NCBI RefSeq assembly: GCF_021295345.1
Contig: NZ_JAIMJB010000002.1
Span: forward strand, 62,001 to 126,000
DNA: 64,000 nucleotides
Source: Motilimonas eburnea
Lineage (GTDB): Bacteria; Pseudomonadota; Gammaproteobacteria; Enterobacterales; CBDFNC01
Direction of reading: 5' to 3'
The notes below the pieces were generated by a model. The model was not told the DNA's origin. It did no database searches and worked only from the letters and a program-made list of their open reading frames with translations. Positions 48,829 to 64,000 of the stretch are shown piece by piece. Numbering within the stretch: position 1 is the stretch's first letter; every line of letters starts with the position of its first letter. A program made the position numbers and the translations under genes.

Positions 48829-50496
48829 TTACTTTTTGTAAGCGTCGTTATGTACCCCAGCCGCACGGCCAGATGGATCGGCATTGTTTTGGAATGATTC
48901 ATCCCAAAGTAGTGCTTCGGGCGTTGAACATGCCACCGATTTGCCGTGAGGTACACATTTGGCTGCAGACTCAAGGGGGAAGTGCTCCTCAAAGATGCAA
49001 CGGTAGTAGTAGGCTTCTTTCGTATCTGGGGTATTAATTGGGAAGCGGAACTCCGCGCTGGCCAATTGTTGGTCCGTCACTTGGGTATCAATGAACTCTT
49101 TAAGGCTGTCGATCCAATTGTAGCCAACGCCATCAGAGAATTGCTCTTTTTGACGCCACAACACATCGTCAATCAGTTTGCCGTCGAACGCTTCACGCAG
49201 GATATTTTTCTCAATGCGGCCATCTTTGATCATTTTAAGCTCTGGGTTAGTGCGCATTGCTACATCCATGAACTCTTTATCCAAGAAAGGCACGCGGGCC
49301 TCAATGCCCCACGCCGCCATCGATTTGTTCGCGCGTAAACAGTCAAACATGTGTAGTTTGTCTAGCTTACGGTTAAGCTCTTCGTGGAATTCTTGAGAAT
49401 TAGGCGCTTTATGGAAGTATAAGTAACCGCCAAAGATCTCATCTGCCCCTTCACCTGAAAGTACCATCTTAATGCCCATGGCTTTGATTTTTCTAGCCAT
49501 TAAATACATAGGGGTCGATGCGCGAATAGTCGTTACATCGTAGGTTTCAAGGTGATAAATTACCTCACGCAGCGCATCGATACCGTTTTGAACCGTAAAG
49601 ATAATCGGGTGGTGAATGGTACCGATAGAGTCCGCCACTTTTTGTGCCGCGGCAAGATCCGGTGAGCCTTCTAAACCCACTGAGAAAGAGTGAAGCTGAG
49701 GCCACCAAGCTGCTGATTTATCATCATCTTCAACACGCTGTTTCGCAAAACGTTGGGTGATAGCAGAAATAACCGATGAATCTAGGCCACCTGATAGCAA
49801 TACGCCGTAAGGCACGTCACACATTAGTTGGCGTTTAACCGCATCTTCAAGGGCTTGGCCGATTTCAGCCGGGCTTCCACCATTATCTTTAACGCCTTCG
49901 TAGCTCATCCAATCACGGTTGTAATAGCGGGTGATCTTACCTTCTTCACTATCTAGGTAGTGCCCCGGTGGGAATTCTTGAACCTTATTACAGATTGGCG
50001 TTAAGGCTTTCATCTCAGAGGCAACATAAAAGTTACCGTGCACATCCCAACCCATGTATAGGGGGATAATACCAATATGGTCACGGCCGATGAGGTATTT
50101 GTTTTTGTTCTCATCATAGAGACAAAAAGCGAAGATGCCGTTTAGATCATCAAGGAAGGCATTGCCTTTTTCTTCGTACAAGCCAAGGATAACTTCACAG
50201 TCAGATTTGGTTTTGAACTGATAAGCACAGGTTAGCTTAGCCGCTAAGTCTTTGTGGTTGTAAATCTCACCGTTTACAGCAAGGATATGTGTGTTGTCTT
50301 GGTTGTATAAAGGCTGAGCCCCTGTATTAACGTCAACGATAGAAAGACGCTCGTGAACTAAAATAGCATTATCGCTGCTGTAAACACCTGACCAATCTGG
50401 CCCTCTGTGGCGCAGTAATTTTGACATTTGAATCGCTTGTTCACGCAGTGTAGCGACATCGCTTTTAATGTCGAGAATACCAAAGATCGAACACAT
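48829..50496 (-). CDS. asnB: Asparagine synthase B (glutamine-hydrolysing)
   Basis: 555 aa. N-terminal glutaminase domain with catalytic C2 (MCSIFGIL), RHRGPD and NGEIYNH. The C-terminal synthetase has the PP-loop LLSGGLDSS near residue 233. Amidates aspartate using ATP and glutamine. Length and sequence match E. coli AsnB (554 aa). Monocistronic with its own terminator. It is a different PP-loop lineage from the QueC-like gene at 3989-5263. Confidence 0.97.
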   Translation of the reverse strand: MCSIFGILDIKSDVATLREQAIQMSKLLRHRGPDWSGVYSSDNAILVHERLSIVDVNTGAQPLYNQDNTHILAVNGEIYNHKDLAAKLTCAYQFKTKSDCEVILGLYEEKGNAFLDDLNGIFAFCLYDENKNKYLIGRDHIGIIPLYMGWDVHGNFYVASEMKALTPICNKVQEFPPGHYLDSEEGKITRYYNRDWMSYEGVKDNGGSPAEIGQALEDAVKRQLMCDVPYGVLLSGGLDSSVISAITQRFAKQRVEDDDKSAAWWPQLHSFSVGLEGSPDLAAAQKVADSIGTIHHPIIFTVQNGIDALREVIYHLETYDVTTIRASTPMYLMARKIKAMGIKMVLSGEGADEIFGGYLYFHKAPNSQEFHEELNRKLDKLHMFDCLRANKSMAAWGIEARVPFLDKEFMDVAMRTNPELKMIKDGRIEKNILREAFDGKLIDDVLWRQKEQFSDGVGYNWIDSLKEFIDTQVTDQQLASAEFRFPINTPDTKEAYYYRCIFEEHFPLESAAKCVPHGKSVACSTPEALLWDESFQNNADPSGRAAGVHNDAYKK

Positions 50497-50687
50497 AGAC
50501 TTCCCTTCTTAAATAAGTCTTTGAGCAATAGCTCATTTTGTTTTTGCATCTAAAGAGATCTGGAGTAAGGCAGGCTGCGATTTACAACCTGTTTCCATTA
50601 CGCTTTTATAATTAGACGTTGGTTTTAACAAATATCCAACACAAAGTCACTGCCCAATTACATCAATAATTGAGCAGTATTACAGGA

Positions 50688-52304
50688 TTAAATATTAATT
50701 CGGCTGGCTATTGGTGTTGTCATGCTTTGCATTTCATTGCAAACGTGGCGAGCAAAACCAGCCCCTGCCTCATCATACATATTAAACACTGCATCTACAC
50801 CTAAGCCTTTTAGTTCTTCGATGTCCTCGGCGAAACGTGCGATGGCGGCAATATTCATGCTGCAGTTACGATTTCTTAACTGGATAGCAGCATAATGGTT
50901 ACCATTATGATCCGGCATGGCCAGTAATATCAGCTTGATTTGATCTGTGAGTTCAAGCTTGTTCCAAAAATCGGAGTCCATCGCGTCACCGGTGATCACC
51001 CGTCGGCCCAATTCTCTGTGCTTGATGGTTTTCTCATGGCTGTTGTCGATACCGAGTACGGTATCGCCAAATACCTGTTTAAGTTCGTCATAAGCACCAG
51101 TGCCGATACGGCCCATCCCCATCACCAACACCGTGGCGTCACCCACACGTATCGGCCTATCCTCGACATGTAATCGCAGGTGCTGAAAGCGTTTCAAGCG
51201 GGGTGACATTTTTTGATAGAGTTCATCACTTTGATTGTTCAACAATGACGAGAGAACAAAACTGATGGAAAGGGCGATGGCCGCAATAATTAGCCAATCG
51301 TTGCTTAGCCAACCTTTACTGGCCGCAAGGGCCGCCACGATCAAACCAAATTCACTGTAGTTAGCTAATGAAAACGAGCCCAGCAGAGACGTTCGCGCAC
51401 GCAGTTTAAATAAGTTAAAACAGAAAAAGTACAGCATGGTCTTGATGGGCAGCAGTAAAACCAAGATTGCAGCGATGATTAAGTGGCTCTCATTGGGCAT
51501 ATCATTTAACCCAATATTCAAAAAGAAACAAACTAAAAACAGCTCTTTAAGGTTAAATAGCGCTTTTGCCATGCCACCTGCGCTGGGATGCGCTGCGACC
51601 AGCATTCCCGCAATCAAGGCGCCCAAGTCGGCTTTCATTCCTACTGCTTCAAACAGGCCGGCACCGACCACTAAGGCCAAGAAAAAACCATACAATACCA
51701 AAAGCTCACCATGGCCCACCTTGTCCATCACTTTAAACAGGACTGGGCGCAGTAAAGGCAACAAGACGAGTGCAATGGCATAATATTCCGGTAACTTACC
51801 GGTTGAAAAAGTAAGAAACAATACCGCAAATATATCTTGCATGATCAGTACGCCAATGGCGATGCGACCGTACAAGGAGTTCATTTCACTCTTTTCTTCT
51901 AAGATTTTAACAGCGAAAACGGTACTTGAGAAACTCAGGGCAAAAGCAACGATAAACAAACCTGTGTTATCTAAACTGTCTACAATAGACAGGCCTAGGG
52001 CTTTTAAAACAAACAGCACTAAGGCAAAAAACAGCACTGAGCCCGTTATGTGTAAAGTTGCAGCGCCAAATACTTCCCCTTTAAACAAGGTGCGGATATC
52101 CAACTTTAAACCAATTGAAAATAACAGCAAGGTAACACCAAGATCGGCAATTGCGGTTAATCCGGCACTGGATTCAAAACCAATTCCATTAAGCACAAAG
52201 CCCGCTAATAAAAAGCCCACCATGGGGGGTAAGCCAATGGCGTTGATGGCCATGCCGGTTGCAAAGGCGATGCCTATGAGAGTAACAAGTAATGTTGGTT
52301 CCAT
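50688..52304 (-). CDS. Monovalent cation:proton antiporter-2 family protein with RCK/TrkA-N domain
   Basis: 538 aa. About 12 membrane helices in residues 1-375 form a CPA2 exchanger core (GLPPMVGFLLAGFVLNG, DLGVTLLLFSIGL). A cytoplasmic nucleotide-binding RCK_N domain follows, with GMGRIGTGA near residue 395 and ITGDAMD. It resembles KefB/KefC and YbaL in layout but has no KefG/KefF-type partner gene nearby. K+ or Na+ exchange for protons is inferred from family. Single gene. Confidence 0.9.
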   Translation of the reverse strand: MEPTLLVTLIGIAFATGMAINAIGLPPMVGFLLAGFVLNGIGFESSAGLTAIADLGVTLLLFSIGLKLDIRTLFKGEVFGAATLHITGSVLFFALVLFVLKALGLSIVDSLDNTGLFIVAFALSFSSTVFAVKILEEKSEMNSLYGRIAIGVLIMQDIFAVLFLTFSTGKLPEYYAIALVLLPLLRPVLFKVMDKVGHGELLVLYGFFLALVVGAGLFEAVGMKADLGALIAGMLVAAHPSAGGMAKALFNLKELFLVCFFLNIGLNDMPNESHLIIAAILVLLLPIKTMLYFFCFNLFKLRARTSLLGSFSLANYSEFGLIVAALAASKGWLSNDWLIIAAIALSISFVLSSLLNNQSDELYQKMSPRLKRFQHLRLHVEDRPIRVGDATVLVMGMGRIGTGAYDELKQVFGDTVLGIDNSHEKTIKHRELGRRVITGDAMDSDFWNKLELTDQIKLILLAMPDHNGNHYAAIQLRNRNCSMNIAAIARFAEDIEELKGLGVDAVFNMYDEAGAGFARHVCNEMQSMTTPIASRINI

Positions 52305-52390
52305 TTATTTATTATCTTTATTATTTTTAGTTCTAGAGAATCTAACTTACATGATGCTAAACCAAGGTTAGCATCATGGGCTTATGTCGG

Positions 52391-53140
52391 TTATAAAAAG
52401 TCAATATCTTGAATAGAATTAACTATGTGGTTGGGTTTGAACGGGACCTTATCAATATCGGTTAATTGACTGACGCCACTTAACACCAAAATGGTTTCAA
52501 GGCCCGCCTGAAAGCCCATTAAAATATCGGTGCGAAGATTGTCGCCGATAATACAGGTATCTTTGGAATGTGCACCAATTTTATTCAATGCGGCGCGAAT
52601 AATCCAAGTGCTTGGTTTACCGACATAAAAGGGCTCTCGGCCGGTCATACGCTCAATGGGGGCACATAATGCACCGCAAGCGGGGCTCATGCCTGGACCA
52701 TGCGTGTCAGGATTAGTGGCGATAAAGCGTGCGCCCTCGGCGACAAAGCGCGCCGCTTTTTGGATCATACTCCAGTTATAGCTGGTGGTTTCCCCGACAA
52801 TTACAAAGTCGGGGTTAATATCTGTAATGGTAAAGCCAGCCTTGTAGAGTTCATGGGTCAGGGCACCTTCGCCGATAACAAATGCCTTATTGCCTTCTTG
52901 GCGCTCCATAAAGGCCGCGGTGGCCATGGCAGAAGTGTAAAAATATTCAGCGGGAACATTCAAGCCGGCAGATTTAAAGCGGTTATGCAGATCATTTTCT
53001 GTCATGGCGGGATAATTGGTGAGGATGACCAATTTATTACCTTGCTCTATGATTCGGTGGATAAAGGTATCAGCACCTGGGATCAAGGTATTGTTATGCA
53101 GTAATACGCCGTCAATATCGCAGATAATGCTTTTTTGCAT
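52391..53140 (-). CDS. nagD: HAD-IIA family phosphatase NagD
   Basis: 249 aa from Met 53140 (E. coli NagD 250). HAD motif I is CDIDGVLLHNN with nucleophile D8 and D10. Motif II lies in LTNYPAMTEND, and the C-terminal IGDNLRTDILMG holds motif IV. The typical cap segment GKPSTWIIRAAL is present. NagD is a UMP/nucleotide phosphatase. The frame continues upstream to 53260, but that part runs through a palindromic repeat and is not family sequence. No N-acetylglucosamine genes adjoin. Confidence 0.92.
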   Translation of the reverse strand: MQKSIICDIDGVLLHNNTLIPGADTFIHRIIEQGNKLVILTNYPAMTENDLHNRFKSAGLNVPAEYFYTSAMATAAFMERQEGNKAFVIGEGALTHELYKAGFTITDINPDFVIVGETTSYNWSMIQKAARFVAEGARFIATNPDTHGPGMSPACGALCAPIERMTGREPFYVGKPSTWIIRAALNKIGAHSKDTCIIGDNLRTDILMGFQAGLETILVLSGVSQLTDIDKVPFKPNHIVNSIQDIDFL

Positions 53141-53201
53141 GATAAGTTCCGTATAATGTTGAATGCCGTTTAATACTAACCAGTAACAAAACGTCTGTAT
53201 A

Positions 53202-53229
53202 TACCCAATCAAGCTGGATATGCTTGATT
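53202..53229. repeat. Imperfect hairpin related to the palindrome at 23006
   Basis: TACCCAATCAAGC pairs with GCTTGATT around a short loop. The left arm and loop (CTGGA) match the sequence at 23006-23038. It lies in the divergent gap between nagD and the DUF924 gene. Confidence 0.4.
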
Positions 53230-53302
53230 TCAGCAAGGGTTTACAGGCCCTAGTAGTCAACGTCTCGGATTGGCATCATCACACCTATTTCAAGGAGAAA
53301 AC

Positions 53303-53917
53303 ATGACACAACAACAAGGGTATGAAGCGGTCATTGCCTATTGGTTTGGTGAATTAACCGATGAGATGGCTGATGCGCAGCATCATCAATTGTGGTTTGC
53401 CGGCGGTGAGCAAGCCGATGCCGACATTAAGGAAAAATTTGGCCTCATTCACCAGCAACTTGCCAAGGGGGTACTTAAACACTGGCAAAACCATGATTTA
53501 GGCCGCTTGGCGAGTATTATCGTACTTGATCAATTCAGTCGTAATCTGTATCGCGGCACGGCTCAGGCGTTTGCCTATGATGAGCAAGCCCTTGCACTGG
53601 CGAAAGAAGCGGTGGCTCAGGGCGTTGACTTACGCTTGCCACTTGATTACCGCTTGTTTATGTATTTGCCGTTTGAACATGCCGAAGACATTAAAGAGCA
53701 AGAACACTGCTTAGCGCTATTTCAAGGTTTGCTAGAAGATGCCAAGACGGCACAGGGTCAAAAACAGGCTCAGGGTTACTTAACCTTTGCTGAGCAGCAT
53801 TACGATATTGTGCGCCAATTTGGCCGATTCCCCCACAGAAATGAAGCCTTGGGAAGATCTTCAAGACAAATTGAGTTACGCTATTTGGCTGGCGAGCACA
53901 ACCGCTTTGGCCAATAA
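53303..53917 (+). CDS. DUF924 family protein
   Basis: 204 aa, all-helical, cytoplasmic. Family marks are AYWFG at the start, WFAGGEQADADIKEKF, the strongly conserved VLDQFSRNLYRGTAQAFA near residue 75, and YLPFEHAEDIKEQE near 118. The fold is TPR-like by family knowledge and no biochemical role is settled. ATG 53303 has AAGGAG at the right distance; an upstream in-frame ATG at 53270 lacks one. Confidence 0.9.
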   Translation: MTQQQGYEAVIAYWFGELTDEMADAQHHQLWFAGGEQADADIKEKFGLIHQQLAKGVLKHWQNHDLGRLASIIVLDQFSRNLYRGTAQAFAYDEQALALAKEAVAQGVDLRLPLDYRLFMYLPFEHAEDIKEQEHCLALFQGLLEDAKTAQGQKQAQGYLTFAEQHYDIVRQFGRFPHRNEALGRSSRQIELRYLAGEHNRFGQ

Positions 53918-53963
53918 TGCGGTCTTGATACATAGGCCAGATTTCAATCAATAGGATGCTATT

Positions 53964-54398
53964 ATGCTTAAGCAATTTCTACTTACCGCTAGCCTCAGCG
54001 CAAGCATGTTTCTCACCTCAGGCTTGTTGACTGCTCAAGCTCAAACCATGGATGAATTTTATGCCGAGCCCGCTAATCAAGCCCAGTTTGATAAAGCGCT
54101 TGCTGAAGGGCATATCGTAAAAGGGCGCGTATTTTTTGTTAAAAATTGCCAAGATGCACTAGAAAAAGGGCAAACTACCGAGCAAGATTGTGATTGTATT
54201 CAGGGTCAAATAGCCAAGATATCTGACAAAGAGTTCTTTTACGAAACTATCCTAGCTTATCAAGAATACCAAGCGCGCGTCGCGGTGCATGGCGATGCAG
54301 AAAAAACGGCCGCCCTTAAGGAGCAGCAAAGCAAACGTGAAAGTTTGACCAAGCGCATTGAGCAAAGTTGTAAGCCAAGTGATGTGGCGACTAACTAA
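53964..54398 (+). CDS. Small secreted protein with four cysteines, function unknown
   Basis: 144 aa. Residues 1-26 form a Sec signal peptide (hydrophobic core, AQA cleavage before Q27). The mature part is helical and Lys/Gln-rich, with C62, C76, C78 and C136. The DCDC pair could form disulfides in the periplasm. I do not recognise the family. It lies 46 bp after the DUF924 gene, and its stop overlaps that of the convergent Lnt-like gene by 4 bp. Confidence 0.75.
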   Translation: MLKQFLLTASLSASMFLTSGLLTAQAQTMDEFYAEPANQAQFDKALAEGHIVKGRVFFVKNCQDALEKGQTTEQDCDCIQGQIAKISDKEFFYETILAYQEYQARVAVHGDAEKTAALKEQQSKRESLTKRIEQSCKPSDVATN

Positions 54399-55906
54399 GC
54401 CTTTTTACGCCTAGCGCGAATAATCAAACCTAAGGTGATAGCGCATATTAGCCACGCAAACACATCGCCATAACGACTATAAAATGGGGTGACAGTACTT
54501 AGCTGCACCTCACCTTGAATCAAAGCTCGTTGATTAATCCCACTTCTTGAAACTAACTCACCATAGGGGCTGATCACCATACTGACGCCACTGGTCGTTC
54601 CTACGCTAAAGGCAACACGGTGCTCGATTGCTCTAAAAATACTGTCGGTGGCATGAAGTAAAGGGAACTGACGGTTAGCTCTAAAATCATCATCGACGGG
54701 CATTAGGATAATTTGTGCTCCCTGCTGTTTAAGATGCCTTGTTATCCACAAGCGATGACGATCATAGCAGATCCCCAAACCGACTCGCCCAAATGAAGTC
54801 TCAACCACTTTGCTTTGTGTTAATGTTCCAGCCGTAAAACCAAATTGTTTTTCACGAAAGGTGATGGCGATTTTTGGGGTTCTGAGTATTTCATTGCCAT
54901 GGGGATCATACATGACGGCCGTGTCAAAACGTTGTCCTTGATGCTCCCAAATCATATCCACCACCAAGTAACTGGACATTGTTTTAGCCAAGTTTTTAAC
55001 TTGGTTTACCATCAAAGCATCGTCCAAGTTGGCCATTTCATTTTCGGGCCAAACAATCACATCGACAGCTGGGTTAATTGTTTGGTTCAGCCGTTTGGTT
55101 AATTGTGCATTCACATCAAAAATGGCTTGCGACATGGCAGGCGTGTCGGCCCAGTAGCCTTCACCGTCCATGGGATTGATGGCTAAGCTTTGGATTTGTG
55201 GGTCTTGATTACTTAAATCGACCGTGGCGGCGACCTTGACTTTATTGGGTGAAAGTACCTGATTTTCTAGTTCAATTTGGCCCCAAGCAAAGACTAAGAT
55301 GACAAGGAGTAAGCTGGCTATTGCACTGCGGTTAACGGGGGTACGGGTTTGTTTATTGATCACTAATTGGGTCAGGGCGGTGTTACTGAGTAGAACCAAA
55401 AAGCTCACCCCAACAAAACCCGTGATGGATAATAACTGCAATACATTCAGTTGTTGCCATTGAGTTTTGGCGATTAACACAAACCAAACATCTTCAAGGT
55501 AAGGCAATACAAAACGCAAGTATTCAATACTGCACCAAAATAAGGGCAGTGCAAAAATACGCCATTTATCAGGTACCTTAAAACTGAGCCAAATGCCCCA
55601 ATGCATCACTCGAGCAAAGAAAAAACCTGCGGCTATCATCAATGGCAAACCAATGGCAGTGCCAAATAGATCCATAAACCAAGCATGAGCGAAACATGAC
55701 CAACTTATTGTGGCGGGCAATAATAGCCGAAAGGCTTTGATGTGTGACCAATGATGAACGACATATAATGCCGGCACCAAGGCAAACCAAGCGAGCCAAC
55801 CCGGTGTGATAAACCCTAACTCATAACCTGGCGTGGCCAAGCCCATGAGTATTCCGGAACTAAGACTAAGTAAAAGGGCAAGAAATAAATTGTTTGATTG
55901 CATCAT
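54395..55906 (-). CDS. Apolipoprotein N-acyltransferase-like membrane nitrilase
   Basis: 503 aa with about six N-terminal membrane helices, a periplasmic carbon-nitrogen hydrolase domain (residues about 223-470) and one C-terminal helix, the layout of Lnt. The catalytic triad is present as E288 (VWPENEM), K345 (TPKIAITF) and C380 (GLGICYDRH). Spacings between triad residues are shorter than in E. coli Lnt (57 and 35 against about 68 and 52), and the surrounding motifs differ, so this is probably an Lnt paralogue. It reads in the same direction as, and 48 bp beyond, the phosphopantetheinyl transferase gene, so it may belong to the type II cluster. Its acyl donor and acceptor are unknown. Confidence 0.75.
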   Translation of the reverse strand: MMQSNNLFLALLLSLSSGILMGLATPGYELGFITPGWLAWFALVPALYVVHHWSHIKAFRLLLPATISWSCFAHAWFMDLFGTAIGLPLMIAAGFFFARVMHWGIWLSFKVPDKWRIFALPLFWCSIEYLRFVLPYLEDVWFVLIAKTQWQQLNVLQLLSITGFVGVSFLVLLSNTALTQLVINKQTRTPVNRSAIASLLLVILVFAWGQIELENQVLSPNKVKVAATVDLSNQDPQIQSLAINPMDGEGYWADTPAMSQAIFDVNAQLTKRLNQTINPAVDVIVWPENEMANLDDALMVNQVKNLAKTMSSYLVVDMIWEHQGQRFDTAVMYDPHGNEILRTPKIAITFREKQFGFTAGTLTQSKVVETSFGRVGLGICYDRHRLWITRHLKQQGAQIILMPVDDDFRANRQFPLLHATDSIFRAIEHRVAFSVGTTSGVSMVISPYGELVSRSGINQRALIQGEVQLSTVTPFYSRYGDVFAWLICAITLGLIIRARRKKA

Positions 55907-55954
55907 GGGCCTTACAGATTCGTCATGGCCAATGAAGCATACAACAATCGGCCG

Positions 55955-56668
55955 TCAATCCAATTGATAATTGTAATAGTTAATTTTGTCAATAAAATGA
56001 CTGTGACAAATGGCTGCAGTGATAGGTCGTTGGCAATTTTTCATCCCTAATACCTTTTTTAACGGCAAGAGTTTCGCGTAGAACCCCCGCGCCACCTCAA
56101 TACATTGGCCGTCATTAAGTGGAGTCGAAAGGGTATTGATGCGACTTGGGCTACCATGCCATCCCTCGCCAGTGGCTTTTAGCCATGCTTCCTGCAGTGC
56201 CCAGTAGCTGTAGAACCGTTTTGCTGTTACGACCTTGCCATGTTGATCAAAGCAGGCACGCCATAAGCGTTCAATTTTACTTTGCTCATGTTTGTGTAAG
56301 CAGATATCCACTCCGATCTGTCCCTTTTGGCACAAGGCCAAGATAAGATAATTGCCGCAATGTGAAAGATTAAACTGGAGAGCAGTATTGAGTAGCATCG
56401 GCTTGCCATTGACATCTGTGGTCAACGTCAACCTTTGAGGATAAAGGTACGCCCTTAAAATTCGGTTTAAAAACAAGCGCTGTTTGATAAACCTAAGTTG
56501 GTTGATTTCTTGTAACTGGTTTGCTTTTTGTTGTTGTTGCGCCGTTAGCTCTGTTAGCGCAGGCTGTATCGGGATGACTTTATTGCCAAGCTGAGCAATA
56601 TGAATATCAATGGCACCCTCAGTTAAGCCCTTTGATGGTTTTGTCATATTGTGGGTGGATGTCAACAT
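55955..56668 (-). CDS. Sfp-type 4'-phosphopantetheinyl transferase of the type II cluster
   Basis: 237 aa. Transfers phosphopantetheine from CoA to a carrier protein. Motifs are FNLSHCGNYLILAL near residue 99, GVDIC at 119-123 and WALQEAWLKATGEG at 156-169, with D121, E160 and K164 as expected catalytic residues. The usual Glu two positions after the Asp (GVDIE) is Cys123 here, which is unusual for a metal ligand. Two-domain Sfp length. Such enzymes accompany polyketide, non-ribosomal or PUFA systems needing their own carrier-protein activation; PfaE of PUFA clusters is one relative. The gene is the last or next to last of the cluster. Confidence 0.85.
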   Translation of the reverse strand: MLTSTHNMTKPSKGLTEGAIDIHIAQLGNKVIPIQPALTELTAQQQQKANQLQEINQLRFIKQRLFLNRILRAYLYPQRLTLTTDVNGKPMLLNTALQFNLSHCGNYLILALCQKGQIGVDICLHKHEQSKIERLWRACFDQHGKVVTAKRFYSYWALQEAWLKATGEGWHGSPSRINTLSTPLNDGQCIEVARGFYAKLLPLKKVLGMKNCQRPITAAICHSHFIDKINYYNYQLD

Positions 56669-56757
56669 CTTATCTAAACCTATGGTGAGTTAGGCCAGGG
56701 TAAACTGGCCATGCTGGGTTAAGTTATCAGCTAAACAAAAATATAATTCGGGTGGAC

Positions 56758-57483
56758 TTAAGCCACCTGCAAGGTCTGACTAAAACCCCCATCTAGCACC
56801 AAGTTTGACCCAGAGCGAAACATCGCTTGGTTTGCCAAACTTAACGCGACTTGGGCGATTTCCTCTGGCTGGCAAAAACGGCGCATTGGAATGCGTTTGT
56901 GAGCATTGGGCTGTTGATACCAGGGGCTGGCCTTGATCATTTCGGTGGCAACGGGCCCAGGAGAAATACTGTAACAACGTAGGCTAGGGTAGGCGTTAGC
57001 CAGTTGCTCGGTCCATGCGATGATCATGCGCTTACTGACGCTATAGGCATTTTGTCCCGCTCGTGGCCTGACGCCGGCAATGCTGGCCAAGTTGATCACT
57101 GTGCCAGCTTCCCCCGCCAATAAGGGCGTTTTTAGTTGCTCAAACAGGGCACATGCACTTTGAAAATTCGTGGTGATGATTTGTTGCCAATCGGTGAGGG
57201 GCGTATTGACTAATAAATTGTCTTTAAGCACACCCGCATTATTGATCAGCACATCGAGCTTATCGCAGCGCTGGGCAAATTGGCGGCGCTGGGTTGCATC
57301 ATTGATATCAAATAGCGCAAGGCTGGCGCTGCCGCCAAGGCGCTGGATCTCGCCGAGTAGCTTATCGACTTCCTGAGTGTTTCTGCGGACATTGATAAAC
57401 ACATGATAGCCGTGCTCGGCAAAGGTGAGGGCCATGGCTTTACCTATGCCTTGGCCTGCGCCTGTGATTAATACTTGTTTCAT
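56758..57483 (-). CDS. Short-chain dehydrogenase, FabG-like ketoreductase of the type II cluster
   Basis: 241 aa. Complete SDR: cofactor motif TGAGQGIG (residues 7-14), NNAG 81-84, S134, Y147-x3-K151, and the C-terminal LDGGFSQTL. Arg at NVRRN after the second strand favours NADPH. It resembles FabG, whose housekeeping copy is at 33962, and would reduce the 3-oxo group after each condensation. It follows the SDR-like fragment gene after 18 bp, with 89 bp before the phosphopantetheinyl transferase. Confidence 0.88.
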   Translation of the reverse strand: MKQVLITGAGQGIGKAMALTFAEHGYHVFINVRRNTQEVDKLLGEIQRLGGSASLALFDINDATQRRQFAQRCDKLDVLINNAGVLKDNLLVNTPLTDWQQIITTNFQSACALFEQLKTPLLAGEAGTVINLASIAGVRPRAGQNAYSVSKRMIIAWTEQLANAYPSLRCYSISPGPVATEMIKASPWYQQPNAHKRIPMRRFCQPEEIAQVALSLANQAMFRSGSNLVLDGGFSQTLQVA

Positions 57484-57501
57484 TCTTTGCTCCTTAATTT
57501 A

Positions 57502-58029
57502 TCAAAGCTCTGCTGCGTTGATGGGCGATAAGGCTAATGCTTGCGCCGTGCAATAATGGCCACTGGACCAAGTCAATAACGGCGTGAGCTGCTGCGTACT
57601 CACGCCTTGGCTTTGATGCAAAAAGTTAATTGCCACTTGCTTGGGTGCTAATTCCAGCGCCATGATTTGACAAAGGGCCAAGGCGCCCTCGCGCCAAATG
57701 ACTTCGTTGCTGTGTTGCCAAATAACCCAGACTTGAGCGCCCTTATTGCGCATCAAGGGGCGATAGACGTGCTGCATTAATGCAAATTGCAGATCCAGTA
57801 ACCCTTGGCATGCTTGCCTCGCATCAATAATCATCACCAGTTGCAGCTTAGGCGTTTGGCACAGCTGGGTTAACTGCGCCAGCTTGGCTTGCTGCTCATC
57901 TGCATGAAATAGCGTATCGTTAAAACTTAACTGACCAAGGAAATGAGCGGCTTGAAACACCATAAGCTCGCAGGGCGCATCTAGCGCTTGTTGAGGGATT
58001 ATCGGCTGATTAGAAATAGGATCACCCAT
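57502..58029 (-). CDS. Truncated SDR-like protein without catalytic motifs
   Basis: 175 aa from Met 58029, whose ATGGGTGA overlaps the upstream gene's stop and has AAGGA before it. No clear family. Two segments look like SDR helices: DLQFALMQHVYRPLMRNKGA near residue 80 and REGALALCQIMALELAPKQV near 114 (compare the SDR block before the last strand). The N-terminal glycine-rich cofactor motif, the NNAG block and the YxxxK pair are absent. It may be a non-catalytic partner of the ketoreductase or of a ketosynthase. The frame is intact, with normal overlaps, so it is unlikely to be debris. Confidence 0.65.
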   Translation of the reverse strand: MGDPISNQPIIPQQALDAPCELMVFQAAHFLGQLSFNDTLFHADEQQAKLAQLTQLCQTPKLQLVMIIDARQACQGLLDLQFALMQHVYRPLMRNKGAQVWVIWQHSNEVIWREGALALCQIMALELAPKQVAINFLHQSQGVSTQQLTPLLTWSSGHYCTAQALALSPINAAEL

Positions 58030-58933
58030 GTTGACATTCCTTATTGTTAAATTGGCTGGTGGCATGTTGAGGGGGTTGTTGCTGGCTATGGCGCTGAATA
58101 AATTCCGCTAGCCAAGTGTTGACCTGATTTGGCGCTTCTAAGTTGGCCACATGTGAGCTAAGGCGAAGGGCGTGATGTTCAAGGCAAGGTGATTGTTCAA
58201 GCCAAGGCGTTAGCACCTCGGGAGGAAATAATGGGTCGCCGTCGCAGCTGAGCATCATGCTCGGAATAGGGCTTAGCTTGGGTGTATGATCTTGGTTTAA
58301 GCAAGCTTGTAGAAACTGGCCAAGGCCTGCTAGATCTTGGTTGTATTCGACATAGCTATTTAACACATACGCTTTCATGCCCTTGATTTTTTGAAGGTAT
58401 AAGTCGCTAAAAAACCAAGGATAGATCTGGCTAAAGAGCAGCTCGGGCGCCAGTTTGGCCCTTAACATCAGCAGCACATTGTCAATCAAGTAATGGGCCT
58501 TTTCGCCTATGCTGGGCGCACTATTGATAAAAGTTAACGAATGGGGCGGTTGCGCCATCAATTCGCACAAACGATTGGCCACCATGCCGCCAAGGGAATA
58601 GCCGATAAAGTGTGTGGTCTGAGTTGCCCCTTGCTGTTGGACTTGCTCAATCAGCGCCAATATCGCAAAGGCAATATCATCAAAGTCAAAATGATTGATG
58701 TGTGGCGCAAGGGCAGCGTTGCCACAGCCGGGATAATCAATAAACAGCATCCGCATCTGACTCAATTTACGACAGCGCTGCTGCTTAACCCAAGACGACT
58801 CACCGTGAAATAGCCCGTTAAAAAACACCAACAAATGGGGGGAGTCTAGGTTGCCCTTTAGTTTATAGTCTAACCCTAGGTTTATCCGTTTACCTGAGTC
58901 TTGGCCGTGATCAACGGCTGGATCAAATCTCAT
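58022..58933 (-). CDS. Alpha/beta hydrolase, probable chain-releasing thioesterase of the cluster
   Basis: 303 aa, soluble. Nucleophile elbow GYSLGG with S113, acid D231 or D233 (SCDGDPLFPP) and H261 (LSSHVANLEAP) form a full triad. The oxyanion region is FFNGLFHGESSW near residue 38. In a carrier-protein pathway the natural reading is hydrolytic release of the finished acyl chain; esterase or transacylase action cannot be excluded. It overlaps the dehydratase-like gene upstream by 11 bp and the SDR-like gene downstream by 8 bp. Confidence 0.82.
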   Translation of the reverse strand: MRFDPAVDHGQDSGKRINLGLDYKLKGNLDSPHLLVFFNGLFHGESSWVKQQRCRKLSQMRMLFIDYPGCGNAALAPHINHFDFDDIAFAILALIEQVQQQGATQTTHFIGYSLGGMVANRLCELMAQPPHSLTFINSAPSIGEKAHYLIDNVLLMLRAKLAPELLFSQIYPWFFSDLYLQKIKGMKAYVLNSYVEYNQDLAGLGQFLQACLNQDHTPKLSPIPSMMLSCDGDPLFPPEVLTPWLEQSPCLEHHALRLSSHVANLEAPNQVNTWLAEFIQRHSQQQPPQHATSQFNNKECQHG

Positions 58934-60056
58934 ATAAGGTCTCCTTGGTTATCTCACACTGGCGTAACCATAGATTAAATAACGCGAGGTCAAAGTCATT
59001 GCCGCTTTGGCTTTGGGCGATGGCCTGCTCTATATCCAAAATGCGCTCATTGCAGCTATTAAACACACTGATGCGGGCACAGGTTTGGCCATGGCCTTGT
59101 TTGGTGAGCTCAATCAACGCGCGGCAGCGGCCTTGCTCTGGATGGAGGCGATAGAGTAGGAGTTTATCGATGGCGACGGGTAAGCGGGGCTGACCGTCTT
59201 GTAATATGGCTAAAAAGCACAGCAATTGTAGGCATGAATCTAGCCCCAAGGGAGACAGTAAAAAGCGATGGCCCGCTGGCTCAAGCCAAGCTCGCTCTTT
59301 TTGTTGGCAATCATATTGCGCCAAAATTTGCTGGCGTGTGTGATTAATGGCCATGTCACCCGTTAGGCTTTGCAGCAAAGGCCCGTGGGTGGTGAACACC
59401 TTGCTATAAAGCTCAGCGGGATTGGCTTGGTAGTGGGTCACCTCGCCAAATAACAGCGGCGCGCCTTTATTGGCGGTGAGTAAGGGGTCAAAGGCAATGG
59501 TGACACTGGCGTGGCGTTTCATGCCCAGAGATACACCTTGCTTGTTGTAGCGCGGGGTGAGCAGCTGCAACTGAATTTCATGCCCCTTGGGGCCAAGTAA
59601 ACGGCTCAGGACTTCGATTTCAAGTTGGACTGACTCATTGCCCGCAGGCAAGGGTAAAATTCGGTCAAGCTTAAGGCCATAAACTTGCAGTGGGCTCCAA
59701 TACAAGGTGCCTTGCCCGCGATGTTGGAGCCAAGTGGCGGCTTCGACAAAATATTCTAAGATAGCCGTGGCGGGCATTAGATCACCAAGGGGAAAGCGGT
59801 GTTGGCGTAAATAAGGACAGGTTTGCTCATTAACGTTCAGGTTAAAGCGACACAGGCCCTTATTGCCCCAGTGCACTTCTGCCATGTTCAGTAGCGGATA
59901 GTCGGCGCAATTTATCTGCTCTTGGCTGCCCGCAACTTCATAATGTAACAAGGGGTATTTAATGCCGCGCCCTTGCTGTTTAAATTTGTTTTGAATTTTG
60001 CTTTTTAGGGTATTAACTAAAAGCTGCAGCTTGCTCGGTTTGGTTTTCACTAGCAT
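58923..60056 (-). CDS. Double-hotdog dehydratase-like protein (DH-B)
   Basis: 377 aa. Looks like a stand-alone polyketide-synthase dehydratase: an N-terminal hotdog with catalytic His (H86, and P95 nine residues later as in HxxxGxxxxP, with Gly shifted one place to 91). A HGPLLQSLTG block (residues 224-233) corresponds to the YGPxFQ motif, and a C-terminal hotdog carries D273-x3-Q277 (DSCLQ). Would remove water from 3-hydroxyacyl-carrier protein. The first 30 residues are basic. It is encoded directly after a second such gene with 7 bp overlap. Confidence 0.75.
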   Translation of the reverse strand: MLVKTKPSKLQLLVNTLKSKIQNKFKQQGRGIKYPLLHYEVAGSQEQINCADYPLLNMAEVHWGNKGLCRFNLNVNEQTCPYLRQHRFPLGDLMPATAILEYFVEAATWLQHRGQGTLYWSPLQVYGLKLDRILPLPAGNESVQLEIEVLSRLLGPKGHEIQLQLLTPRYNKQGVSLGMKRHASVTIAFDPLLTANKGAPLLFGEVTHYQANPAELYSKVFTTHGPLLQSLTGDMAINHTRQQILAQYDCQQKERAWLEPAGHRFLLSPLGLDSCLQLLCFLAILQDGQPRLPVAIDKLLLYRLHPEQGRCRALIELTKQGHGQTCARISVFNSCNERILDIEQAIAQSQSGNDFDLALFNLWLRQCEITKETLYEI

Positions 60057-61099
60057 AGTGCCTCCAACACCTTGGCAAAAGGCGCTTGTTCACATCTATG
60101 GTGGCGGTAGTGATCATGGACATGACAGGCCACACGCTGCTCATTGGGGGCGCGATGTAGCTTTATCTTGTCGATATAGGCCACCAGCTGCTGCGTTTCA
60201 TCTAACACCCAAGCGCGCAGGGTTTGGGTGGTGTCATCAACGGATAGGCTTTGCACTAAGGTGCGATAGTTTTCATTTTTTCGCCACGGCTGATAGCGCT
60301 GCACTTGGCTTAAGCCCACGGGCAATTTACTAAAAAAGTGCTCGCTGGACTGACTTTCAATTTGCACGCAGCACAGCACACAGGCCTGTAGCACGCTATC
60401 AAGTGCCAGCGGCCCTAAGGCAAACGCAAATTCTTCACTAGGTAAAGCGTCGGCATAGTCAGCCTCCGTGGTTTGTAAATTAAACTCACTGATCAAGCTC
60501 AGGTTGTCAGGGGCGAGGGCAAAGCGGCCGGTTAAACTTTGAAACAAGCGGCCATGGGTTGGGTTAAATAGTTGATAATATTCTGCTTGGCTAAAGTGAT
60601 AATGATCCCAGTTTGGCGAACAGTCAGGGCCGTGGCTAGGCTTGGCTTTAACTTGGGTTAGGCTTACCTTCACCCGCGCACTTGCCACCAGCACGCCTTG
60701 GCGCAAGCATTTACCCTTGTCATCATAGTAGTTTCGCTTAAGCTCAACCTTTAGCTCGTGCGAATTATCCCCTAAGAGATCGGTCTTCGCCAACGGCGCG
60801 ACAAGCTTGGCATCAGCAAACACGGTGAGATCTGCACTGGGATCAAAGGCCAAGGGGCGGCGGATGTTAAAATCCACAAGTTCAACCCCTATGGCGTCGG
60901 TTGGTTTAAGGGCTAATGCCATGATCGCCACTTGGCTCATTAGCTCGGCGCTGATAGCAGCCGGCACCAAACATTGGCCAGAAAAGATATGGTCGCGCAA
61001 ATAGTATTGCTGCTCTGGGCTTAATTGCCATTGGCAACTCATGTCATCACCAAGGCGAGACAGATTCGATAAAAACGGTTCAAAATACCAATAATTCAT
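60050..61099 (-). CDS. Double-hotdog dehydratase-like protein (DH-A), motifs complete
   Basis: 349 aa. The N-terminal hotdog has a perfect HxxxGxxxxP motif (H37, G41, P46 in DHIFSGQCLVP). The central THGRLFQSLTG (181-191) matches YGPxFQ, and the C-terminal hotdog holds D234-x3-Q238 (LDSVLQ). This is the best-conserved of the three dehydratase-like proteins and the likeliest active 3-hydroxyacyl dehydratase. It lies 9 bp after DH-C and overlaps DH-B by 7 bp. Its nearest relatives by layout would be the PS-DH domains of type I polyketide synthases; as a free protein it is unusual. Confidence 0.8.
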   Translation of the reverse strand: MNYWYFEPFLSNLSRLGDDMSCQWQLSPEQQYYLRDHIFSGQCLVPAAISAELMSQVAIMALALKPTDAIGVELVDFNIRRPLAFDPSADLTVFADAKLVAPLAKTDLLGDNSHELKVELKRNYYDDKGKCLRQGVLVASARVKVSLTQVKAKPSHGPDCSPNWDHYHFSQAEYYQLFNPTHGRLFQSLTGRFALAPDNLSLISEFNLQTTEADYADALPSEEFAFALGPLALDSVLQACVLCCVQIESQSSEHFFSKLPVGLSQVQRYQPWRKNENYRTLVQSLSVDDTTQTLRAWVLDETQQLVAYIDKIKLHRAPNEQRVACHVHDHYRHHRCEQAPFAKVLEALC

Positions 61100-61108
61100 A
61101 GCGTTACC

Positions 61109-62071
61109 TCAGTGTAGTTGGGGTTGCAAATGGTAATGTTCAAATTGCAAGATGGGTGTTAAATCCGCTTCACGACAGACCAATACATCAACACACAGCC
61201 CTTGGTTGGTGAGGGGTGACGTCTTAGCGGGCGCGATCTGACAGACCAGCTTGCCTTGGTGGTTTAGCGAGTTTTGCCTGTCGCCATAAAAGGTGAGGCC
61301 ACCGATATGGCTAGGCAGCGCGATGGCCTTGTCTAAATAGCCATAAAAAGGCAGATGCTGCACCGCTGACATGGCTGCGAGCACAGGTGTGATAAAATCA
61401 GGCTCAATCTCGGTTTGTAAACAATATTGGCGACTGTTGCGCAGATCGGAATAACACCATAACGCTTGGGTTTTAGGGCAACGTAAGTATTTAAAGGTTA
61501 AATTGTTAAATAAAATCCCTAAGGTTGCCGGTGACTGCGCCTTAAAGTCATCAATCAAGGCTCGCTCAATCAGCTCGCCACTGGGCATGGCGTTCACTAG
61601 GTTGGGCGTTGTATTTTTCGCATCACCAACTAAGGTGGCGGTTAACACGGTCAGTTTAGGGCGGACACATTGACCTTGTTGATTTAACTTGTCGTAACTG
61701 ACCGTTAGCTGATAATCGCCCTGCTGCTGGCATGGCTGCCAATCAAAATACAAGGTTTGTTGTTCGCCACCCGTTAAATAGGCCAAGCGCGTTGCGCTGA
61801 TTTGGCGCCATTGCAGCTGGGGTTGGCTAAGCAGCCGCTCAGCCAACTTGCTGTTGGTTTTCGCTAAAACGCCATGGGCTAGCTCAAGCATAAATACCGA
61901 AGGAATGACGACTTTTTCATTGATGAGATGGGACAATAAGTAGCGATGCTCGCTGATGTTGATTTGCAGCTTGGCGCAAATAACATCCTTCGTTAAGGTG
62001 TAATCTAGCTGGCCATAACTTGCTAAGGTGCGAGGCAGCTGATCAGGGGCGACGGGTTTTAACTTATTCAT
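61109..62071 (-). CDS. Double-hotdog dehydratase-like protein (DH-C), partly degenerate
   Basis: 320 aa. The N-terminal hotdog keeps the His and Pro of the motif (H48, P57 in HLINEKVVIP) but has Glu for the Gly. The middle block GILFNNLTF is a faint YGPxFQ equivalent. In the C-terminal hotdog the catalytic Asp position appears to be Thr (FITPVLAAM near 226-234), with no DxxxQ. It may be a structural or product-binding subunit, or an isomerase-like hotdog, and not a dehydratase. It overlaps the ketosynthase gene by 8 bp. Confidence 0.65.
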   Translation of the reverse strand: MNKLKPVAPDQLPRTLASYGQLDYTLTKDVICAKLQINISEHRYLLSHLINEKVVIPSVFMLELAHGVLAKTNSKLAERLLSQPQLQWRQISATRLAYLTGGEQQTLYFDWQPCQQQGDYQLTVSYDKLNQQGQCVRPKLTVLTATLVGDAKNTTPNLVNAMPSGELIERALIDDFKAQSPATLGILFNNLTFKYLRCPKTQALWCYSDLRNSRQYCLQTEIEPDFITPVLAAMSAVQHLPFYGYLDKAIALPSHIGGLTFYGDRQNSLNHQGKLVCQIAPAKTSPLTNQGLCVDVLVCREADLTPILQFEHYHLQPQLH

Positions 62072-63401
62072 ACACTTCCCCTTTAGCCTTAAAGCGAGAG
62101 AAGATCACGCTGGCATTTTGGCCGCCAAAACCAAAGTTGTTGGACAGAGCATGATCAAAGTGCAGTTCACGTTTGGTCTCGGGCACGTAATCTAGATCTA
62201 GCTCGGGATCGGGGGTGTGGTAATTGCGGGTGCCGTGGATCATGTTATCGCGCATCGCGTAGATACAGGCGATGGCTTCGAGCGCGCCCGCCGCCATAAT
62301 GCCGTGACCTATCATGGATTTGGTTGATGAAATGGGCACGCGATAAGCATGCTCGCCAAACACCGCCTTGATGGCATTGGTTTCGGTGCGATCGTTCATC
62401 TTGGTTGAGGTGCCATGGGCATTGATATAACCAATGTGCTCTGGCTTTAGCCCTGCGCAATCAAGCGCACCTTGAAGGGTGCGCCTTGCGCCCATGCCGG
62501 AAGGATCTGGGTCGGTGGCGCGATAACCATCGGAAAAAGAGGCATAACCGCTGACTTCGGCCAAGATAGTGGTGCCGCGAGCCTTCGCGTGAGCTAGAGA
62601 TTCCAGCACTAAGATGCCACAGCCACTGCCCATCACAAAGCCACTGCGGTTTAAATCAAATGGCCGACATGCACTGTCAGCATCCTTGTGAGTGGTTAGG
62701 GCGCCAATGCGAGTAAAGCCAACCATGGAATTAACATCAAAATCGTAGGCGCCACCGACGATAGCGCAATCCAACTCGCCTTGTTGGATCTTTAAAAAGG
62801 CTTCCCCGATGGCGTTATTGCCTGACGCACAGGCGGTGCCTATGCTCAAACAAGGGCCACTGAGCTGGTAATAGCGGGCAATAAAGTGATTTAAGCTTTC
62901 TTGCTCGGGAGCTTGATAGTATTGACGCAGCGCCGTATTGCTTTGCAGCGCCTGCCAATAGCGTCCTATATCTAAATCTCCTAATTGCTTACTTGGGGCT
63001 GCCTCAATCAGACTTGGCAAGTAATGCTCCATGATGCTGGTGGGCGAAAAGGGCCGGTCGGCCACCATGCAAGCCAGTCGTTGTTGGTCGATATTGCCAA
63101 TATCTAACCCCGCTTGTGAGATGGCTTCGGCAACAGCGAGGAAAAACTTAGGGATGGAAGGGTCTAAGGTTTGCATCTCCTTTAGTTTGGCATCATCGGT
63201 TATGTTTTCGTTTACATCCGGCATAGCCCCTGCAATTGCAACAATCTCACCCGAGATGGGTAAATGGGTGATGGCCGATAAACCATTGTTGCCTTGTAAA
63301 AGGTTTTGCCACAGCTGCTCAGCGCCAGCACCAAAGGCACTGATGGCGCCAACGCCTGTGATCACCACGCGATGATGTGAGCGGTTTAAATTTGAATTCA
63401 T
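62064..63401 (-). CDS. Beta-ketoacyl synthase (KS-alpha type) of the type II cluster
   Basis: 445-aa condensing enzyme of the FabF class. Active-site C191 (GTACASGNN), H329 (INAHGTST), K361 and H366 (STKSMIGHGIMAAG) are complete, as is the C-terminal NNFGFGGQNAS. It is longer than FabF (412 aa), with an insert around residues 125-170. It starts within the stop of the ketosynthase-like gene before it (ATGA overlap), the coupling typical of KS/chain-length-factor pairs. Would extend a carrier-bound chain by malonyl units. Confidence 0.9.
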   Translation of the reverse strand: MNSNLNRSHHRVVITGVGAISAFGAGAEQLWQNLLQGNNGLSAITHLPISGEIVAIAGAMPDVNENITDDAKLKEMQTLDPSIPKFFLAVAEAISQAGLDIGNIDQQRLACMVADRPFSPTSIMEHYLPSLIEAAPSKQLGDLDIGRYWQALQSNTALRQYYQAPEQESLNHFIARYYQLSGPCLSIGTACASGNNAIGEAFLKIQQGELDCAIVGGAYDFDVNSMVGFTRIGALTTHKDADSACRPFDLNRSGFVMGSGCGILVLESLAHAKARGTTILAEVSGYASFSDGYRATDPDPSGMGARRTLQGALDCAGLKPEHIGYINAHGTSTKMNDRTETNAIKAVFGEHAYRVPISSTKSMIGHGIMAAGALEAIACIYAMRDNMIHGTRNYHTPDPELDLDYVPETKRELHFDHALSNNFGFGGQNASVIFSRFKAKGEVYE

Positions 63402-64000
63402 GGCGTGACTCCTGTGGCAGGCGTGTTGTTATGAAAGGTACTTTTTAGTAACAGTGACACTTGATTGCCTTGATGATCTTGGTGGTGACAAAGAAGAATT
63501 TGCTCACCTTGATGGCTTAGGCCTTGCTGGTTGTAGTTTGCTTGTTGGCTTTGGGGTTTGTCCTTGATATTAAGTACGGGTGCCCAATAGCCTTGACTAA
63601 GCTGTAAACAAGCATAGAAAAGATTAGTCGCTGCGCTGGCGCCTAAGGTAAAACCGCAATAATCCGTTGCCGAAAGCAGCAAGGCCCTTTCACCTAAGGT
63701 GTTGAGGGCAGCGGCCACTTCACTCTGGTCTAATGCTTTAATGCCGGCAAGCGTTAGCTGCGCAGCGCTAAGATCACTGGCCGATACGCCGGCTTTACTT
63801 AAACAAGCCTGCAGATGGGCTTGGATCATCTGCTGCCTAACCCTCGGATTTAGGCTAAGTACATTGGGAATATAGCTATTGTGATACGCCAAAATTTCAA
63901 TCAGCGGCTGATGGCTATTGCTAGTGCGAGATAGAGTTTGGTTACTTGCCTCAACAATAAAACTGACCCCGGCTTCACCTATCTCTAATCCGGCATTATT
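63398..64000 (-). CDS. Chain-length-factor-like ketosynthase, C-terminal 200 residues (5' end beyond window)
   Basis: The frame is open to the right edge; no start codon is needed inside the window, because the TTG at 63892 is internal and the 36 codons before it (NNAGLEIGEAGVSFIVEAS...) match the ketosynthase strand after the active-site domain. Where an active enzyme has NAHG and KSMxGH, this protein reads TLAG and TDYCGF, so both catalytic His positions (Ala, Phe) and the Lys (Thr) are lost. That is the pattern of a chain-length factor (KS-beta). Its active-site Cys region is outside the window. Order is CLF then KS. Confidence 0.75.
   Translation of the reverse strand, partial: NNAGLEIGEAGVSFIVEASNQTLSRTSNSHQPLIEILAYHNSYIPNVLSLNPRVRQQMIQAHLQACLSKAGVSASDLSAAQLTLAGIKALDQSEVAAALNTLGERALLLSATDYCGFTLGASAATNLFYACLQLSQGYWAPVLNIKDKPQSQQANYNQQGLSHQGEQILLCHHQDHQGNQVSLLLKSTFHNNTPATGVTP

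Follow-up and report, generated by a model that had tools for sequence, protein, structure and literature searches.

Organization of the locus

The DNA stretch analyzed here (the window; 64,000 bp, G000:C22:62001-126000) comes from Motilimonas eburnea and carries an operon-like set of twelve minus-strand genes that extends past its right edge (54395-66313, 11,919 bp; window numbering is used for all coordinates unless stated otherwise). Their sequences support the presence of a dedicated acyl carrier protein (ACP), two active ketosynthases (KS1 and KS3), a chain length factor (CLF), a ketoreductase (KR), two dehydratases (DH) with intact sites (DHA and DHB) and a 4′-phosphopantetheinyl transferase (PPTase). 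A third DH-like protein (DHC), an alpha/beta hydrolase, a 187-aa protein and a closing Lnt-like membrane protein complete the set (Table 1). Gene spacing suggests that these genes form an operon; the largest overlap, 59 bp between the ACP and KS1 genes, assumes an upstream TTG as the KS1 start.

Table 1. Genes of the Motilimonas eburnea set in their order of transcription. Spacing is given relative to the next gene, overlaps being negative.
Gene or product	Coordinates	Strand	Length (aa)	Spacing (bp)	Remarks
ACP	65915-66313	-	132	-59	outside window
KS1	64666-65973	-	435	-4	outside window; active ketosynthase residues
CLF, KS-like but lacking Cys and both His	63398-64000, whole gene 63398-64669 = L005:8399-9670	-	423	-4	window edge cuts gene
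KS3, second active ketosynthase	62064-63401	-	445	-8	C191/H329/H366
DHC, double-hotdog DH paralogue	61109-62071	-	320	+9	H48 kept, M234 in place of Asp
DHA, stand-alone double-hotdog dehydratase	60050-61099	-	349	-7	H37 and D234
DHB, stand-alone double-hotdog dehydratase	58923-60056	-	377	-11	H86 and D273
Alpha/beta hydrolase	58022-58933	-	303	-44	S113/D233/H261; putative release or editing
Conserved protein, no family assigned	57502-58065	-	187	+18	SDR origin possible, unsupported
KR, FabG-like	56758-57483	-	241	+89	S134/Y147/K151
PPTase	55955-56668	-	237	+48	Pfam match
Lnt-like membrane acyltransferase (putative)	54395-55906	-	503		LNT_N and CN_hydrolase, E288/K345/C380; Lnt arm absent

A first-pass annotation, made from the letters of the window alone, had described nine consecutive minus-strand frames at 55955-64000. 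All nine are present, and a Pfam scan identified among them KS, PS-DH/PKS_DH_N, alpha/beta hydrolase, a KR-type short-chain dehydrogenase/reductase (SDR) and a PPTase, the latter barely passing its cut-off (26 vs 25 bits). The view of a dissociated type II set is borne out by the separate ACP, KS, CLF, KR and DH proteins. The nine-gene extent was too short: KS1 and the ACP were found in the sequence to the right, where further genes had been suggested to lie, and the Lnt-like gene on the left, inside the window, belongs to the set too. These three genes matter for what becomes of the product. The CLF-like frame was rightly named, but at the window edge it is the C-terminal part of the 423-aa CLF. 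The genes are in general as tightly packed as had been described (overlaps of 4-11 bp or small gaps), with the exception of one overlap (44 bp) and one gap (89 bp) that exceed those sizes.

The left neighbor of the Lnt-like gene is convergent, while a glutamate symporter gene is found on the same strand 0.7 kb to the right of the ACP gene. One terminator-like site was detected against 0.5 expected. About 12 kb to the right of the ACP gene, a 390-aa frame (L006:2991-4163) looks by eye like a group II intron-type reverse transcriptase.

Conservation and surroundings in Motilimonas

The set was compared with the genomes of Motilimonas sp. E26 (G001), M. cestriensis MKS20 (G002) and M. pumila PLHSC7-2 (G003), the M. 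eburnea genome being G000. The block of 11 genes from ACP to PPTase is collinear in the three congeners and the Lnt-like gene comes next in each of them. Operon proteins of M. eburnea and E26 are 32-68% identical, and Ks between these two genomes is saturated or nearly so. For the closer pair, E26 and M. cestriensis, an in-house Nei-Gojobori script gave Ka/Ks values of 0.06-0.24 for all 12 genes (DHC 0.13, 187-aa protein 0.18), the lone flanking control of this pair having 0.012. The same twelve-gene order in four genomes, together with these ratios, argues for more than a chance arrangement; as judged from the sequences, purifying selection is acting on all 12 genes.

The surroundings are less constant. 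The left flank (window 48829-56668) is common to M. eburnea, E26 and M. cestriensis, with neighbors that are 48-94% identical. Between M. eburnea and E26, three farther flanking genes are 89-94% identical and the two nearest ones only 48% and 63%, so that the operon is not sharply set apart from its closest neighbors. On the right side, 22 M. eburnea frames have no match in 20 kb of each of the three congeners, and the slot looks variable on that side. In M. pumila neither flank matches that of M. eburnea (20 kb compared, about 4 kb visible per side). These differences indicate that the set of twelve remains intact where its surroundings change, the Lnt-like gene apparently moving along with the other genes. 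In the four genomes the operon has a G+C content of 0.458-0.491, compared with 0.384-0.448 for the flanks measured (the M. eburnea value was obtained without the last 605 bp).

In E26 and M. cestriensis the operon is adjoined by a divergent type I polyketide synthase (PKS)-nonribosomal peptide synthetase (NRPS) set with its own PPTase (L015:1-2793, L016:1-3786, L053, L055). Its PKS was considered as a candidate pfaA and rejected, scoring about 320 bits, below the family cut-off; it is a different PKS. Related PKS/NRPS frames are found on contig C26 in M. eburnea and on C149 in M. pumila, away from the operon, a distribution that leaves a link between the two sets unsupported.

Ketosynthases, ketoreductase and hydrolase

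In the alignment KS1 and KS3 retain the Cys-His-His residues in the four genomes. The Cys column of the CLF is occupied by Phe in M. eburnea and by Pro in its three congeners, and the two His columns by Thr and Phe in all of them. KS1, CLF and KS3 each form one clade in a KS tree whose deep forks are open and whose long branches were flagged. We infer that KS1 pairs with the CLF. The KR retains Ser134, Tyr147 and Lys151 in 4/4 genomes, a spacing that is presumably of the KR and not of the FabI type, and the hydrolase keeps its Ser-Asp-His residues equally well (4/4).

The 187-aa protein had been labeled an SDR fragment, a name that could not be sustained. Neither Pfam nor NCBIfam gave a match to it at E 0.001, and its profile shows no kinship with that of the KR (0.3% probability by hhalign). 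Its structural model, in which strands alternate with helices (mean pLDDT 68.9), retrieved mostly AAA+ proteins in the top Foldseek rows, none at E ≤ 0.001. A profile search of the PDB gave five matches, all SDRs, with E values of 0.2-2.1, and the Tyr-x-x-x-Lys motif is absent in this weak alignment. A dead SDR-like partner of the KR is a possible identity.

Two intact double-hotdog dehydratases and an altered paralogue

DHA and DHB score above the PS-DH cut-off (36.3 and 38.8 vs 23.7 bits; PF14765/PF21089), keep the His-Asp pair in 4/4 genomes and are clearly related by profile comparison (99.5%, E 4e-22). DHC remains under the Pfam cut-off (21.7 vs 27 bits). It keeps His48 and the Pro nine residues further on, but has Met at the Asp column in the four genomes, an assignment on which three MAFFT modes agree. 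Its profile kinship is 83.5% (E 8e-6) with DHA and merely 7.2% with DHB. Searches of the PDB with sequence profiles found no match for DHA (E 0.01) or DHC (E 10). The AlphaFold model of DHC is weak (mean pLDDT 54.5); Foldseek nevertheless returned 94 matches at E ≤ 0.001 (best E 6e-11), the best 50 of the 94 being all PKS dehydratase domains or chains containing one. The TM-scores of 0.31-0.37 by query length and an rmsd above 14 Å mean that this search supports the kind of fold and not its details. At that level, the matches listed suggest that the three stand-alone double-hotdog proteins of the first-pass annotation were correctly recognized. Only DHA and DHB carry the His-Asp pair of a dehydratase, and the trio probably comprises two dehydratases and a changed paralogue, DHC.

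PKS DH relatives lacking the Asp can act as double-bond isomerases. Two GphF DH1 variants, one titled isomerase-inactive, are among the DHC fold matches listed, and integral enoyl isomerase domains are mentioned in a portion of a review (PMC5331325). A double-bond isomerase activity of DHC is an unlikely proposal. Double-hotdog dehydratases are normally domains of large synthases; free-standing intact DHs with a natural Asp-less partner would allow dehydration and double-bond shift to be studied with separate proteins.

The Lnt-like gene

Both LNT_N and CN_hydrolase domains are found above cut-off in the product of the last gene. Its score is below the cut-off of the Lnt equivalog TIGR00546 (95.8 vs 132.9 bits), while a canonical Lnt above that cut-off is encoded elsewhere in each of the four genomes (in M. 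eburnea on contig C11; 21% identity with the Lnt-like protein). Residues E288, K345 and C380 align with the E. coli Lnt triad E267-K335-C387, as given in the available text of PMC6971011. The same text states that the mobile arm 345-365 of E. coli Lnt could help to direct the incoming apolipoprotein, more experiments being needed. An 18-column gap next to the Lys covers this arm in the four Lnt-like rows, the NDAWFG of canonical Lnt copies is DDDF, and E352 may stand for the essential E343. The conserved triad and the missing arm suggest that acyl-transfer chemistry may be retained with another acceptor. If so, such a descendant of Lnt, arm-less but with its triad, would add an amide-forming step of a new kind to the biosynthesis of lipids or natural products. 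A use of lipoprotein maturation in the making of a ribosomally synthesized and post-translationally modified peptide is described in a part of PMC12636315. At E ≤ 1e-30, the 197 genomes of the order that were searched contain just the four Motilimonas copies of the Lnt-like protein.

Distribution and prior description

The samples of relatives, order, class and phylum used for the distribution searches overlap in part. DHA was found in 4 of the 59 relatives. DHB was found in 4/394 genomes of the order, these four being all Motilimonas. In the class, the four DHA hits among 369 are the M. eburnea protein and three matches that cover about 80 residues within longer frames (1947-2931 aa), and the four DHC hits among 274 (E ≤ 0.01) are its own protein and three short weak matches. 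The two DHB hits among 398 in the phylum are the own protein and a partial match in a 1333-aa frame. PF14765 is present in 22 of 143 genomes of the class (own frames of 388 and 352 aa). The only match above cut-off in a frame shorter than 600 aa that is not from M. eburnea is a 410-aa frame of G418; it lies between type I PKS-like frames and has no match to the DH profiles, and was therefore not counted as stand-alone. CLF matches at E ≤ 1e-15 occur in 53 of 143 genomes of the class, but the best score outside the genus is 103.6 bits vs 793.1 for the own protein. Two CLF peptide patterns run against the genomes of 84,980 species gave 307 pattern matches and 3 relatives, all Motilimonas; these patterns are narrow and could miss distant relatives. 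On plasmids, tblastn with KS3 hit 1299 records, all below 60% identity, the best 20 of the 1299 being FabF-like (37-40%). The CLF hit 133 records (23-25% among the 12 matches listed), DHA a single piece of a cyanobacterial type I PKS, and DHC had no match. No full-length relative outside the genus was found among the sampled genomes, in which other phyla are hardly represented. Within the genomes searched, the operon is an orphan confined to one genus.

The flanking sequence contains no described cluster with a known product. The set is not described among the literature matches listed for stand-alone DHs, type II polyenes, isomerases and Lnt combined with polyketides or gene clusters, as far as the text of these sources was available. 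Within the literature searched, no paper mentions double hotdogs together with type II polyketides. A term search of the main text of a Motilimonas genomics paper (PMC13182010) did not find “antiSMASH”, “polyketide”, “PUFA”, “fatty acid”, “BGC” or “aryl”.

Proposed pathway and alternatives

We propose that the genes encode, as an operon, a type II PKS that is highly reducing and fully dissociated and that makes an unsaturated acyl chain; the Lnt-like enzyme may transfer this chain to an amine. The chances of this complete reading appear evenly balanced. Its core, the synthesis of an unsaturated chain, is likely, while the action of the Lnt-like enzyme on the product of this synthase is a tentative element that falls a little short of even chances. 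In this scheme KS1-CLF would elongate the chain with malonyl units supplied by the host FabD, and KS3 would be a second elongation enzyme. DHA and DHB would dehydrate, the Asp-less DHC acting as a double-bond isomerase or structural partner, and the alpha/beta hydrolase would release or edit the chain. The Lnt-like membrane enzyme would then pass it, probably via a phospholipid, to an amine other than the usual lipoprotein, giving an N-acyl envelope lipid or an amide with an unsaturated chain. A far-reaching version, in which a new class of type II synthase with free double-hotdogs, a dedicated isomerase (DHC) and an Lnt-derived N-acylation of a non-lipoprotein amine with a polyunsaturated chain would yield an undescribed Motilimonas envelope aminolipid or amide, is improbable as a whole. 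The small set (11.9 kb, no giant gene) could be transferred to a laboratory strain, in which a direct search for its product would be feasible.

Several observations weigh against the proposed pathway. A sigma-70-like promoter was searched upstream of the ACP gene and not found, and the gaps on either side of the PPTase gene (89 bp to KR, 48 bp to the Lnt-like gene) leave co-transcription open in M. eburnea. Family scans of the operon proteins found no enoyl reductase, in agreement with the first-pass annotation; the polyene product deduced from this is only an inference, toward which the missing gene points weakly. Type II systems are able to use the enoyl reductase of their host, and that enzyme could saturate the chain. 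If the acyl donors of Lnt-like enzymes are phospholipids, the chain has to get from the ACP onto a phospholipid, and the operon encodes no route for this. Colonies of M. cestriensis, a species with the operon, are white-beige, and the fatty acid profile of this species shows no polyunsaturated acid in the text available (PMC8375427). Color and profile speak against a major colored polyene in those conditions but allow a minor or silent product. The same source says in part that three unidentified aminolipids distinguish M. cestriensis from other species; M. pumila also has the operon, so these lipids do not track it and are not evidence for it.

Among the alternatives, the core may make an unsaturated acid while the Lnt-like gene is a mere neighbor, coding for a hydrolase or for a second acyltransferase that serves ordinary chains. 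The 48-bp gap in M. eburnea, best solved-structure matches to soluble nitrilases and a triad that is common to hydrolytic nitrilases (in the accessible text of PMC6971011) are in line with this option. It has however to account for the position of the gene after the PPTase gene in 4/4 genomes, at 9-48 bp and also in the different surroundings of M. pumila, for the conserved LNT_N membrane domain and for the lack of a match at E ≤ 1e-30 outside the genus in 197 genomes of the order. We regard it as the less probable option, if a serious one. A specialized long-chain fatty acid set similar to acpXL-lpxXL, in which each cycle would be finished by the host enoyl reductase to give an envelope chain that is saturated, hydroxylated or singly unsaturated, is unlikely without being negligible. 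The same plan of own ACP, at least two KSs, DH and closing acyltransferase is described in part of PMC11901934, the genes of the nearest CLF relatives are accompanied by one for a lipid A-type acyltransferase, and neither color nor polyunsaturated fatty acids (PUFA) are reported for Motilimonas in the portions of the literature available. Two intact and one altered double-hotdog DH, on the other hand, exceed the complement of such a set, and the acyltransferase is Lnt-like, not LpxL-like. The ACP reaches 33.3 bits, vs a cut-off of 83, on NF005079, which we take to be an AcpXL-type model.

The double-hotdog proteins could also be cyclases of the product-template style leading to a cyclic or aromatic product. 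DHA weakly matches TIGR04532, a product-template model, but its 26.5 bits are far below the cut-off of 168, a KR is present and the DHC fold matches listed are PKS dehydratases. The DH His-Asp pair of DHA and DHB is a weak point in this argument, since product templates also keep a His-Asp pair. We consider such cyclases very improbable. That the set is the end portion of a PUFA synthase (pfa) or aryl polyene (APE) cluster, both already dismissed in the first-pass annotation, is hardly credible: what speaks for it is general chemistry and the two KSs plus CLF that APE systems share (PMC8358021, in part). A pfaA above the TIGR02813 cut-off is located apart from the operon in each of the four genomes, whereas the operon KSs reach at most 85.2 bits on that model, below its cut-off. 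On the APE models PRK09185 and PRK09116, KS1, KS3 and CLF score at most 253 bits, and APE accessory genes are absent from the operon and near flanks.

Comparison with known systems

The pfaA gene of M. eburnea itself is on the same contig, about 62 kb to the right of the operon (G000:C22:190313-202117). The fatty acid table for three species, in the part available, lists no polyunsaturated acid, although pfaA is present in the four genomes. APE systems combine a KS-CLF pair with a second KS that raises throughput, according to sections of PMC8358021, which by analogy suggests a role for KS3. The Motilimonas set likewise has KS-CLF, a second KS and a FabG-like KR. The two KSs of an annotated APE reference pass PRK09185 (447.8 bits) and PRK09116 (737.4 bits), its CLF gene codes for 237 aa against 423 aa in Motilimonas, and its ammonia-lyase, AMP-binding ligase, LolA and glycosyltransferase have no counterpart in the operon or near flanks.

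The rhizobial acpXL-lpxXL cluster for very-long-chain fatty acids has its own ACP, two or more KSs, a DH and a closing acyltransferase (PMC11901934, partial text). The gammaproteobacteria with the best CLF-like scores outside the genus (G422 and G434) code for an ACP, a FabA-like DH (294-298 aa), a KS, a CLF-like KS that lacks the Cys but keeps both His, and a lipid A-type acyltransferase (L071:8236-13017 and L072:7648-12367), apparently dedicated acyl-chain sets. The Motilimonas set shares with all of these its own ACP, two KS-type genes, DH and closing acyltransferase; the DH is of the FabA/FabZ type and the acyltransferase of the LpxL type in those sets, but double-hotdog and Lnt-like in Motilimonas. 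Its end gene resembles Lnt by the LNT_N and CN_hydrolase domains and the E-K-C triad and departs from it by the sub-equivalog score, the low identity to the own Lnt and the missing arm stretch. In rhizobia, the ACP and KS of NodFE are dedicated to an unsaturated chain, which the N-acyltransferase NodA puts on an amine; NodA is not known to be an Lnt relative.

Highly reducing type II PKSs use KS-CLF, KR and DH to make polyenes, as described in the available part of PMC10698177. The Motilimonas set has the same separate ACP, KS-CLF, KR and DH without enoyl reductase in the operon. Its DHs are double hotdogs of 320-377 aa in the style of type I enzymes, unlike the single-hotdog DHs of the systems compared (138-150 aa for the two annotated dehydratases of a plasmid-borne Streptomyces set), and it ends with an Lnt-like gene, which those systems do not. 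The operon thus reads, from its sequence, as a probable highly reducing type II PKS of variant make-up, in which the trio of double-hotdog proteins and the Lnt-like gene at the end are distinctive of Motilimonas.

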